Below, in pieces: positions 3,438 through 50,235 of a DNA stretch of 51,843 nucleotides; the first letter of the stretch is position 1; each line of letters opens with the position of its first letter. The position numbers were made by a program, and so were the translations under genes. The notes below the pieces were generated by a model. That model searched no databases and was not told the DNA's origin. It saw only the letters and a program-made list of their open reading frames with translations. The DNA is from Oscillatoria sp. CS-180 (lineage in GTDB: Bacteria > Cyanobacteriota > Cyanobacteriia > Phormidesmidales > Phormidesmidaceae), in the NCBI RefSeq assembly GCF_028330965.1, contig NZ_JAQMUB010000086.1, positions 1-51,843 on the forward strand. Direction: 5' to 3'.

Positions 3438-3551
3438 CTAGTACCGCTACGCGGAATTCAAAATTCGAAATTCAAAACTAAGGCAAACAAGCTTTTCCAG
3501 GATTTTGAAGGGTGAGCCTATGTCTGCCGTAGCGTAGAGGTATTGCCTAGT
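3438..3551. repeat. MITE-like element, copy A (inside the cta operon)
   Basis: It starts ctagtaccgctacgcggaattc, continues with an A/T-rich stretch and a conserved core (aaggcaaacaagctttt ... ggtgagcct), and ends ctgccgtagcg followed by a diverged tail ending cctagt. It lacks the internal block found in copies C, D and E. It sits between ctaD and ctaE. No ORF is evident. Confidence 0.65.
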
Positions 3552-31134: not shown

Positions 31135-32382
31135 ATGACCCATTTTTACTGGGTGTCAAGTTCTGACGACGCGCTAGTTCCGTCTTCTCAGCAGCCTGTA
31201 GCCCAAGCTCTGGAACAGCTACGCCGACAGCAGCAACTCATTCTGAACGCTGTGGGAGAAGGCGTTTATGGGCTGGATTTAGAAGGCAAGGTCACATTTG
31301 TGAATCCAGCCGCCGCCGCCATGATTGACTGGCCGATTGAAGAACTAATTGGCAAATCGATGCACGTAGTGCTGCACCATTCCCATGCTGACGGCAGTCT
31401 CTACCGTCGAGAAGATTGTCCAATCTATGCAGCATTTCAGGATGGCAGTACCCGACGGGTCACCAATGAAGTCTTCTGGCGCAAAGACGGCAGCAGCTTT
31501 CCAGTTGAATACATCAGCACCCCAATGCGAGATGAAGACGGCAATCTCATCGGCGCAGTGGTTACGTTTCAGGACATCACGAAGCGACGATGGGCAGAGG
31601 AGGTCTTGCAGCGAACGAATGAAGAACTAGAGCAAAAAGTTCAAGAGCGCACCGCAAAACTTCGCGAGGCCAACCAACAGTTGCAGAAGTTGAATGACAT
31701 GCGATCGCGCTTTGTTTCGATGGTCTGCCACGAATTCCGCAATCCCCTCAACAACATTGCTCTATCAGTCACCTCGCTGAATCGCTACGATACTAAGCTC
31801 AGTCTCGAAGAGAAAGTCGATTATCTGATTGCCATTAAAGAGAATGTCGAACGCATGGCTCAGATGATTGACGACATTTTAGTCATCGGCAAAATCGAGG
31901 CTAAAGTTTTGGAAATCAACCCGAGATCGCTCGACCTCCTTCATTTTTGCCAAGTACTGCTGACGGAACGAGAGTATCAAAGGGCCTCTGCCCCGATTCA
32001 ACTCCTCTGTCGTAGTCGCCAGATGATCGTAAGCTGCGACGAACGACTACTGCGCTCCATCATCAGCAATTTATTGTCTAACGCAATTCGATATACGCCC
32101 ACCCACAATGCCATTCGGCTGAAGCTAGCAAAACGCCAGCAGCAGATCATCATTCAAGTTCAAGACGAAGGGATGGGCATTCCTAGGGAAGACAAGCGTT
32201 ATCTCTTTGAACCGTTTCATCGAGGGCGAAATGTCAGCAACATTCCGGGGACAGGGCTGGGTCTGAGTATTGTCAAGCAGTTCGTAGAGCTTCAGCGTGG
32301 CACCATTGACGTGAGCAGCAAGGTGGGCAAGGGAACCACATTTACTATCCGACTGCCAATCAACTCCCGACAACAAGACTAG
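31135..32382 (+). CDS. PAS-domain sensor histidine kinase
   Basis: A cytoplasmic kinase of 415 residues without membrane helices. PAS domain about 30-155 (NAVGEGVYGLDLEGKVTFVN), ending ITFQDITKR-like as VTFQDITKR. A coiled-coil linker (EELEQKVQERTAKLREANQQL) follows, then HisKA with phospho-accepting His199 in CHEFRNPL, and HATPase with N-box NLLSNAIRYTP, G1 DEGMGIP and G2 GTGLGLSIV. It is divergent from the AraC-type response regulator, its likely partner. The end of the gene abuts MITE-like copy B. Confidence 0.93.
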   Translation: MTHFYWVSSSDDALVPSSQQPVAQALEQLRRQQQLILNAVGEGVYGLDLEGKVTFVNPAAAAMIDWPIEELIGKSMHVVLHHSHADGSLYRREDCPIYAAFQDGSTRRVTNEVFWRKDGSSFPVEYISTPMRDEDGNLIGAVVTFQDITKRRWAEEVLQRTNEELEQKVQERTAKLREANQQLQKLNDMRSRFVSMVCHEFRNPLNNIALSVTSLNRYDTKLSLEEKVDYLIAIKENVERMAQMIDDILVIGKIEAKVLEINPRSLDLLHFCQVLLTEREYQRASAPIQLLCRSRQMIVSCDERLLRSIISNLLSNAIRYTPTHNAIRLKLAKRQQQIIIQVQDEGMGIPREDKRYLFEPFHRGRNVSNIPGTGLGLSIVKQFVELQRGTIDVSSKVGKGTTFTIRLPINSRQQD

Positions 32383-32388
32383 TGCCGC

Positions 32389-32464
32389 TACGCGGAATTC
32401 AAAATGCAAAATTTTAGAATTCAAAATTAAGGTCGGTTTGCCTTCTGGCAGAGTAGTCCAACTT
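32389..32464. repeat. MITE-like element, copy B (short, diverged)
   Basis: It begins ctagtgccgctacgcggaattc only 7 nt after the kinase stop codon and includes the A/T-rich stretch. The core is degraded (aaggtcggtttgcc), and it ends ctggcagagtagtcc. It is the shortest of the five copies. Confidence 0.55.
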
Positions 32465-32720
32465 TAGCAAGGGAAAAGTAGTGACGGCTATAACGTCTAG
32501 CGATCGAGCAACGCAGACAATCGCCTCCCCTATCTATAAGACTTAGGCGCATCGAACTCACTGCTTTGAAGATGGATGCTGCCTTCTGCCAGCTCACTTA
32601 TGCTTAAGACTTTGTGTGAAAAGCAAGAACCCGCCAAAACCCTTGCCATTATTATCTCGGAGACAAAAATAGGTTCTCTACCGCTTTTACCGCCTCATCA
32701 ATCAGTGGATTTACATAGTG

Positions 32721-37051: not shown

Positions 37052-37184
37052 CTAACACCGCTACGCAGAATTCAAAATTCAAAATTCAGAATACTCTGCG
37101 AGAAGAGCAAAGCTCTACAAAACTAAGGCAGATAGGCTTTCCCAATGTTTTGAATGACGAGCCATTTCTGCCGTAGTGGACTAG
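37052..37184. repeat. MITE-like element, copy C
   Basis: Full-length copy: left end ctaacaccgctacgcagaattc, internal block actctgcgagaagagcaaag, core taaggcagataggctttccc, right end ctgccgtagtggactag. The right end is an imperfect inverted copy of the left. No ORF. Confidence 0.75.
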
Positions 37185-37648: not shown

Positions 37649-38028
37649 AAGAGTCTCCTTTTATCTGTCAGAGGTCATTGGATAACGCCAGAAGCAAATA
37701 CGCCTGACGTCCATGAGCATTACCCTAAGCAGCAAAAGAGAAAAAGCCGTGCAGCAATGGGGAAGCGATCGGGAAAACTGGTGAAAGGAGGAGGTCGACA
37801 GATCAAAGGACACAAGAGCCGTGATTCGTAACATTAAAGCTTTAGTCACCCAGTCTTATGCACCAAAAGCATCCGGGTGCTTGGCCCATAGCCAGATGGC
37901 TCGCCGTCTTGTTCTAACCGAATTGGCGACGACTATAATCGCATTTTCTTGAGTAACGGCTTAATGAACGAGCGGATGCAATCGACTTAGGGCTAGCCTA
38001 AGAATGGGTGGCTAGCAGGTGAATAGAA
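37649..38028. other. Intergenic region with a copy of repeat family 2
   Basis: About 380 bp with no convincing ORF. It holds the repeat at 37867-37940; the rest is promoter space. Confidence 0.5.
37867..37940 (+). repeat. Repeat family 2, copy 1
   Basis: agcatccgggtgct...catagccagatggctcgccg...cttgttctaaccgaattggcgacgactata is present in inverted orientation at 42183-42256. The end motif gaattggcgacg...ctata also recurs at 38487-38509 and in the palindrome at 2673-2702. Confidence 0.65.
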
Positions 38029-42182: not shown

Positions 42183-42256
42183 GTATAGCCGTCACAAATT
42201 CCGTTAGGACAAGACGGCGAGCTATCTGGCTATGCGCTCAGCACCCGGATGCTACT
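42183..42256 (-). repeat. Repeat family 2, copy 2 (inverted relative to copy 1)
   Basis: gtatagccgtcacaaattcc...gttaggacaagacggcgagc...tatctggctatgcgctcagcacccggatgct is the reverse complement of the repeat at 37867-37940, with about one difference in six. It lies between the divergent polA and Uma2 genes. Confidence 0.65.
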
Positions 42257-42463
42257 GGATACACTAACCTAAGCAATTTTAGATTTGTGGATCAGAAAGC
42301 CTTTAGCATCGTCCTATATGGCTTCAGAAAAACTCAACGGTTGCCGACCCCGATACAATAGGAGCACAATTCGGTAAAGACTATACCGCTTTGATTGTTA
42401 GCTCTACTAATAGGGACACTGCAACTCGCAGTTTCAATCCAAAATTGTCAATCGAAATACATC

Positions 42464-49952: not shown

Positions 49953-50112
49953 CTAGTACCGCGACGCGGAATTCAAAATGCAAAATACTCTACTCTTCGA
50001 GAATGCCAAAGGCGAACGAGAAGAGCAAAGCTCTACAGAATTCAAAAAACTAGGGCAGATAAGCTTTCCCAGTGTTTTAGACGGTGAGCCTCTTCCCGTC
50101 TTAGTGTATTAG
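49953..50112. repeat. MITE-like element, copy D
   Basis: The longest copy: left end ctagtaccgcgacgcggaatt, an enlarged internal block (actcttcgagaatgcc...ggcgaacgagaagagc), core tagggcagataagctttccc, right end ccgtcttagtgtattag. The right end is shared with copy E (TTAG at 50109-50112). Confidence 0.75.
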
Positions 50113-50235
50113 TACCGCTACGCGGAATTCAAAGTTTAAAATACTCTGCGAGAAGAGCAAAGCTCTACAAAACTAAGGCGGACAAGCTTTCCCAATGTTT
50201 TGAATGGTGAGCCTATTTCCACCGTAGTGAACTAG
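50109..50235. repeat. MITE-like element, copy E (tandem with D)
   Basis: ttagtaccgctacgcggaatt ... ccaccgtagtgaactag. Its left and right ends are imperfect inverted copies (12 of 17 matching). The internal block is nearly identical to copy C. It ends 53 bp before the RsbRD kinase ATG and may provide its leader. Confidence 0.75.

Follow-up and report, generated by a model that had tools for sequence, protein, structure and literature searches.

A CTAG-flanked MITE family carrying 24-nt two-hairpin repeats in a cyanobacterial genome, with a probable IS630-type mobiliser

Results

Five short elements in the window

The window, that is, the whole stretch of 51,843 nucleotides analysed here, makes up contig 29 of a host genome of 6.53 Mb in 102 contigs and contains five copies of a short, non-coding, dispersed element (A to E; Table 1). 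Copy A sits between a COX3-like and a COX1-like gene, and the left CTAG of copy B contains the TAG stop codon of a PAS/histidine kinase open reading frame. At up to three mismatches, the window has five matches to the common left end, CTAGTACCGCTACGCGGAATT, a number reached in none of 100 shuffles (mean 0), and a profile HMM made from 80 genomic copies, including window copies A, C, D and E, returns the same five places at E ≤1, all on the + strand, and no further copy in the window. An earlier note on this DNA had read these places as a MITE-like family of five non-coding copies sharing a left end, a reading with which the alignment of the ends across the 80 genomic copies agrees. Its positions stand for the copies at 3438, 37052, 49953 and 50109, but copy B starts at 32379 rather than 32389. 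The inverted right end, ascribed to all five, is complete in C, D and E; copy A shows GCGTA-GAGG where the family has GTGTA-CTAG, and copy B matches the HMM only to position 89 of 131.

Table 1. Position and character of the repeated elements and associated features in the window
Feature	Position	Strand	Remarks
MITE copy A	3438–3540	+	without 24-nt block; right end decayed (GCGTA-GAGG); right CTAG lost
PAS/histidine kinase open reading frame	31135–32382		TAG stop within left CTAG of copy B
MITE copy B	32379–32467	+	right side truncated/diverged
MITE copy C	37052–37184	+	complete; left CTAA, right CTAG; one 24-nt block at ~37094–37117
Repeat X	37835–37937	+	window copy of a dispersed repeat of ~104 bp
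Repeat X	42184–42271	-	window copy
MITE copy D	49953–50112	+	complete, 160 bp; double (nested) block
Outer 24-nt block of copy D	49988–50035	+	interrupted: CTCTA ... CGAGAAGAGCAAAGCTCTA
Inner 24-nt block of copy D	49993–50016	+	CTCTTCGAGAATGCCAAAGGCGAA; inserted within the outer block's first hairpin
TTAG common to copies D and E	50109–50112	+	one decayed CTAG target for both elements
MITE copy E	50109–50235	+	complete, 127 bp
24-nt block of copy E	50144–50167	+	CTCTGCGAGAAGAGCAAAGCTCTA

Family members measure ~90–165 bp, and a typical one reads CTAG-TACCGCTACGCGG-AATTCAAAA(TTCAAAA)n-(24-nt block)m-CTAAGGCAGATAAGCTTTCC..TTTTGAATGGTGAGCCTATTTCTGCCGTAGTGTA-CTAG. Its two arms, TACCGCTACGCGG-AATTCAAAA(TTCAAAA)n on the left and TTTTGAATGGTGAGCCTATTTCTGCCGTAGTGTA on the right, are near-palindromic, and the terminal inverted repeats CTAGTACCGCTACG / CTAGTACACTACG are offset by 1 nt. 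A typical copy with a single block (L002) forms an end-to-end fold of -40 kcal/mol (z -4.0), equalled by none of 200 shuffles; the fold of copy D, with two blocks, is no better than that of its shuffles (z -1.0; 36/200 as good). The length of the left arm equals 18+7n+24m in 67 of the 80 copies, with 13 off this grid: on-grid lengths are 18, 25, 32, 39 or 46 nt without block, 42, 49, 56 or 63 nt with one, and 80 or 87 nt with two blocks or the nested form.

Copy number in the host genome

Genome-wide, the left end yielded 89 matches (≤2 mismatches in 17), the right end 63 (≤3 mismatches in 30) and the core 89 (≤3 mismatches in 21), as compared to 0, 0 and 1 for the respective reversed-pattern controls. 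The expectation of very many copies, for which five in 52 kb would extrapolate to ~630, was thus overstated: with 89 left-end matches in 6.53 Mb, about a hundred copies overall and a density of ~1 copy per 60–75 kb across the genome, the window represents a local cluster. In the retrieved host DNA, 107 core matches (≤6 mismatches) divided into 80 copies with both ends, 6 with the left end only, 6 with the right end only and 15 with neither. Median pairwise identity among the 80 is 0.825, so the majority of copies cannot be called recent.

A recognised right end is missing for 22 host left ends, window copy B included. Inspection of 19 of them revealed decayed or unrecognised right ends, members of a second subfamily, or truncations; two loci first scored as left end only (L060 and L065) proved to have a right end upon later core-based pairing, and a double left end (L075) is a 72-bp local repeat and no shared-CTAG tandem. 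The second subfamily (L134, L126, L156, L159 and L078) has a left end identical in type, the core AAAACTGCCTCATAGTGGG and a right end of approximately GTCGAGTACTAG.

Flanking CTAG, unfilled sites and movement

Aligning the copies, as the earlier note had proposed, placed CTAG on the left of 53 and on the right of 51 of the 80 copies with both ends. The 27 left and 29 right departures (some of the latter stemming from misplaced ends) are uncorrelated, with both 4-mers being equal and non-CTAG in only 1/80, while the outer C is kept in 72/80 and the outer G in 67/80 copies.

Unfilled counterparts were sought by joining 72 pairs of flanks over a single 4-mer and comparing them with other loci of the host genome. 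With tandem and self matches excluded, ten of the joined flanks had a spanning match elsewhere, and in seven of these (E3, E13, E26, E32, E33, E42 and E52) the match to at least one unfilled copy is gap-free at or next to the target bases. The same applies to E66 if its right CTAG is set one base earlier; E27 shows a 5-base gap one base off the site, and E14 a gap that spans it. All cases except E14 (9/10) are MITEs inserted in one other repeat, repeat X (TATAGCTTTAGCC..GGCGACGGCTATA), at four or more of its positions, with the unfilled copies being only ~71–84% identical to the filled ones. Unfilled sites hold one CTAG-like 4-mer and filled sites two. These 4-mers fit either a 4-bp duplication of CTAG or a duplication of TA only. 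E3, E26 and E52 have CTAG on the right and a different 4-mer on the left, a state that a plain 4-bp duplication does not predict and that may be due to later mutation. Repeat X itself (~104 bp, TATAGCTTTAGCC...GACGGCTATA, with inverted TATAGC ends) appears MITE-like and is a frequent landing site of the family.

Beyond the host, we followed a 901-bp piece from a related genus that holds a related MITE with the same ends and another core. This element was found in two of the 26 genomes searched (G053 and G028) and is missing from all six others that aligned (G099, G023, G016, G038, G035 and the more distant G032). Three further genomes outside the alignment (G046, G097 and G043) have both flanks, which lie much closer together than at the filled site; in the other 15, one flank or none aligned. 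The intergenic DNA at this locus is too diverged for an exact reading of the empty site. Together, the unfilled repeat copies and the presence or absence of the related MITE among these genomes support mobility of the family.

CCGC-TAC-GCGG hairpins such as that of the left end, next to a tetranucleotide target, recall the ends of IS200/IS605 elements or REP repeats. Might the family then be a single-strand element of this kind? The subterminal hairpin CCGCTACGCGG, the preferred 4-nt target on the left and the departure of the left 4-mer in E3, E26 and E52, with CTAG kept on the right, are what one could cite in its favour. However, IS200/IS605 and REP elements lack inverted ends and have a one-sided tetranucleotide, whereas the present ends are inverted, a typical copy pairs from end to end, CTAG stands on both sides with about equal decay, and the ends are common to IS630 elements (see below). 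One-sided asymmetry of the 4-mer was tested directly and is absent (27/80 left vs 29/80 right departures). We consider this origin highly improbable.

Structured RNAs or transcription terminators, conserved rather than mobile, would likewise account for the strong fold. They could also account for open frames that stop at the flanks: frames of at least 100 codons end at the flanking TAG in 10/114 MITE flanks vs 22/1087 other CTAG strand-sites (Fisher P 4e-4). Since this control is unmatched for gene position, the excess may reflect nothing but the loss of insertions within genes. No Rfam family was found in the window at gathering thresholds, and both the presence or absence of the related MITE between genomes and the insertion in repeat X at several positions speak against such a role, rendering it very improbable as compared to mobile DNA.

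Tandem copies share one CTAG

Copies D and E, whose common TTAG the earlier note had interpreted as insertion at an existing copy, form one of two host pairs—the other being at L009—that each share a single CTAG-like 4-mer. At five loci of Nodosilinea sp. P-1105 (L284, L285, L290, L294 and L315), a copy is joined to the end of some other MITE-like element through a single CTAG. The shared CTAG is accounted for by a new copy landing on the CTAG that flanks an older one, which bears the interpretation out; with 120 CTAGs in the window, some insertions at a flanking CTAG are expected without any special preference.

The internal block is a separate 24-nt repeat

The internal block that had been taken to define subtypes C, D and E is indeed present in these three copies, but it is a separate 24-nt repeat of two small hairpins within the TTCAAAA heptamers, of which copy D holds two units, one nested in the other. 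Its sequence is CTCTNCGAGAAGAGCAAAGCTCTA, or a variant with CCC/GGG and GGGC/GCCC. Across all 39 distinct block sequences, 96.8% of cells are paired. Changes on both sides of a pair concern 28 cells as compared to a mean of 9.8 in 500 shuffles, and the covariation score is 0.262 vs 0.154 (0/500 shuffles as high for either measure), falling when the partner is slid. Two of the five measures, the number of pairs with a double change (2; 404/500 shuffles as high) and the number of pair types (500/500), do not exceed the shuffles, because the variation is carried by two pairs: columns 6–12 and 17–25 switch T-A/C-G and A-T/G-C. Relatives show mixed states, with T-A in the first hairpin and G-C in the second.

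There are 57 matches to the block in the host genome. Among the matches listed, it occurs in 25 of 95 genomes, the host included (reversed control 0), 24 of which belong to the window's family and one of which lies outside. At the inspected loci of relatives, the block lies in heptamers or in other sequence, with the MITE left end absent within 80 bases; one locus of G012 (L031) has the block inside a MITE. At loci of relatives (L329, L335, L336 and L338) we noticed that ATCCCCCAACCCCTT often follows the block, which hints at one more composite repeat.

Could the block be an original part of the MITE that was lost from some copies? In the host genome, 31 of 32 blocks of the CTC type lie at a distance of 6 bases from the core, as such a history would leave them. 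Yet the CCC type stands at the opposite end of the heptamer array, 9 bases past the left end, in 11/11 host cases, and both types coexist in 4/80 copies, so that at least two insertions are the simplest reading. The occurrence of the block in other contexts in relatives, the 24-nt steps in arm length and eight copies, D included, whose first hairpin contains another, similarly built unit (CTCTTCGAGAACGCCAAAGGCGAA) likewise count against loss of an original part, which we regard as unlikely.

Distribution and known relatives

At E 1e-6, DNA matches were obtained in 19 of 95 genomes (host included; best 9 candidates per genome), most of which cover just the left end or just the block; within that same selection, G012 is the one relative with copies that extend along the element (77% and 72% identity). 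The exact 32-base left-end pattern retrieved 19 stretches from public genomes, namely of Nodosilinea sp. P-1105, Tildeniella, Phormidium tenue and two Leptolyngbya records, 14 of which reach a right end at 96–111 bases. The phage records searched gave no match, and none of the matches listed in the open PMC literature is, by title, a publication on this MITE.

MITEs on Nostoc plasmids (UHCC 0870, TCL26-01 and the Peltigera cyanobiont N6) share the left end CTAGTACCGC..GCGGAA, the right end GTACTAG and a similar size; their middle is unlike that of the host MITE, and the 24-nt block is absent from the three copies read. By description rather than by end sequence, the family also resembles other cyanobacterial MITEs, such as those of Anabaena sp. 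90, which excerpts of two papers portray as short elements with many intergenic copies, inverted ends and a hairpin fold and with no matching IS in the genome (PMC3542288; the review PMC10969869). What distinguishes the present family is a length that moves in 7- and 24-base steps.

Transposases of the host genome

The mobilising transposase had been expected outside the window. Searches of the host genome for three DDE families yielded a single hit below cut-off for PF13546 and six hits each for PF13358 and PF01609, all of them on contigs other than that of the window. Comparison of all 13 transposase loci, the six DDE_3 loci included, with the MITE ends gave no match. Clear inverted repeats are present at L211 (TATAGCGGTATGCA, TA flanks), L212/L213, L217, L219, L220 and L222, none of them like the MITE ends; at the remaining loci, inverted repeats are absent or short only. 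The search for an IS with matching ends, as suggested in the earlier note, thus failed for these three DDE families of the host; in other cyanobacteria, it led to IS630 elements with similar ends (see next section).

As a separate observation, L211 (G000:C76, ~1396–2434) is an IS630-type element, and stretches similar to its ends, TATAGCGGCATGCA, occur close to the MITE copies of L005 and L096, which suggests that the host has a second MITE family together with its partner.

At C21:380-3050, a MITE copy lies between two copies of an IS630-type element, in the order CTAG-IS-CTAG-MITE-CTAG-IS-CTAG. Their transposase pieces score at E 5e-35 and 1.2e-21 against the NCBIfam IS630 models, and CTAG-TGSTSAGTCAA is exact at three of their four ends, with one change in the fourth. 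Resident IS630 elements of the host hence use CTAG too, as the MITE does. The bases following CTAGT differ from those of the MITE, and these elements were ruled out as its partner.

IS630 elements with similar ends elsewhere

In Nodosilinea sp. P-1105 (G051), the MITE ends gave 24 left-end and 44 right-end matches, of which we read all 24 left-end and 30 of the right-end loci. Paired ends are ~90–150 bp apart, with few wider pairs, one of them at 356 bp without an open reading frame of ≥90 aa. A scan of nine open reading frames beside unpaired ends uncovered an IS630 remnant (L309; G051:C1, ~310–1521): a DDE_3 gene (E 1.5e-20), its 5′ part missing, whose stop codon falls at the start of AATGATAGACTCATTTCTGCCTTAGAGTACTAG, where 25 of 33 bases equal the MITE right-end consensus. 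By eye, this remnant comes after a tRNA-like stretch, its frame fused 5′ to unrelated sequence. Also by eye, an IS1-like frame on NODE_120 of the same genome starts inside a MITE copy (L224); we take it as an insertion.

A tblastn search with the L309 protein matched 335 plasmid records, the top ten listed being all cyanobacterial, and eight of these best ten were compared for their ends. Seven are complete elements of 1295–1346 bp with CTAG and inverted ends on both sides. Identity to the MITE consensus, out of 33 bases at the right and left end, respectively, is 25 and 26 for both the Calothrix plasmid element and that of Brasilonema pBOCT1, 21 and 24 for the Oscillatoria element (on two plasmids), 23 and 20 for Brasilonema pBOCT2, 22 and 22 for Chroococcidiopsis, and 21 and 19 for Nostoc C052; the eighth locus, in Nostoc edaphicum, has 25/33 at the right and no left end. 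Shuffling the consensus 200 times with CTAG kept, against the right-hand regions of the eight loci only, gave a maximum of 21 and a mean of 17.5. By this measure, four of the seven complete elements exceed the control maximum at the right end and three (Calothrix, Brasilonema pBOCT1 and Chroococcidiopsis) at both ends; the Oscillatoria right ends, the left end of Brasilonema pBOCT2 and both Nostoc C052 ends do not. All five proteins tested (Calothrix, Brasilonema pBOCT2, Nostoc C052, Nostoc edaphicum and L309) gave scores that identify them as pieces of IS630 transposases. In sum, these cyanobacterial IS630/Tc1/mariner elements (Calothrix PCC 7716, Brasilonema, Chroococcidiopsis, Oscillatoria PCC 7112 and Nostoc C052) have CTAG flanks and inverted ends that resemble those of the MITE, most closely in Calothrix and Brasilonema pBOCT1, but are ~1.3 kb long with the transposase in two reading frames, and the MITE left end, CCGCTACGCGG, differs by an offset.

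Discussion

What moves these elements? The L309 remnant and the plasmid elements raise the odds of an IS630 transposase, and, judging from the similar ends, it is very likely that one of this type moves the MITE. ISY100 inserts at TA and duplicates it, according to an excerpt of PMC2170065, and a preference of IS630 for TA within CTAG has been published under a title cited there. A different class of transposase, similar to IS5 or IS701 and making a true 4-bp duplication of CTAG, would explain the one CTAG-like 4-mer of unfilled and the two of filled sites equally well as duplication of TA does. IS5 and IS701 use CTAG-like sites, and the IS4/IS5 type (PF01609) is represented by six hits in the host genome. 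However, the PF01609 loci lack matching ends and the IS701 type (PF13546) gave no hit above cut-off, whereas other cyanobacteria do have IS630 elements whose CTAG-flanked ends resemble those of the MITE, and a liking of this enzyme family for TA in CTAG is on record (title cited in PMC2170065). A mobiliser of the IS5/IS701 kind is thus improbable, and we favour the IS630 type.

Under this explanation, the MITE would be a non-autonomous DNA transposon of ~90–165 bp that inserts at CTAG and then has CTAG on both sides. It is very probably a shortened relative of IS630 elements whose ends are of the CTAG-TACACAACGGCGGAAAT type, and the transposase of such an element very probably acts on it in trans, presumably duplicating the TA within CTAG. 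Insertion at the flanking CTAG of an old copy would yield a head-to-tail pair with a single CTAG, such as D/E. The length subtypes, in turn, would arise from gain and loss of TTCAAAA heptamers, and from the separate 24-nt two-hairpin repeat inserting in the heptamer array and, as in copy D, in itself. Taken as a whole, a well-resolved cyanobacterial MITE family with a CTAG target, very probably of the IS630 type and carrying SDR-like 24-nt units, is with high confidence the best explanation of the data.

How the block itself might spread is a more speculative matter. Elhai and colleagues reportedly described in 2008 the SDRs of Nostoc punctiforme, dispersed repeats of 21–27 nt that are said to lie in heptamers or minitransposons, to nest in themselves and to be paired with compensatory changes. 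Going by this description, the block is alike in its size of ~24 nt, its heptamer and MITE setting, its self-nesting and its compensatory pairing; the SDRs belong to a host of the Nostocales, however, and the block to one of a Nodosilinea-type family. Tentatively, and with the balance of probability somewhat against it, the block may be mobile in its own right, as one of the smallest such units known, which was repeatedly inserted in the heptamer arms of the MITE and in itself by a mechanism that does without a long-ended transposase, perhaps via RNA, and which rides on the MITE.

The family records, within one small element, three nested processes, namely transposition at CTAG, gain and loss of heptamers, and insertion of a 24-nt unit. 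It ties a widespread type of cyanobacterial MITE to IS630 elements by similar ends. Moreover, the discrete step lengths, along with relatives that have the block but not the MITE, make the movement of tiny repeats testable outside Nostoc.
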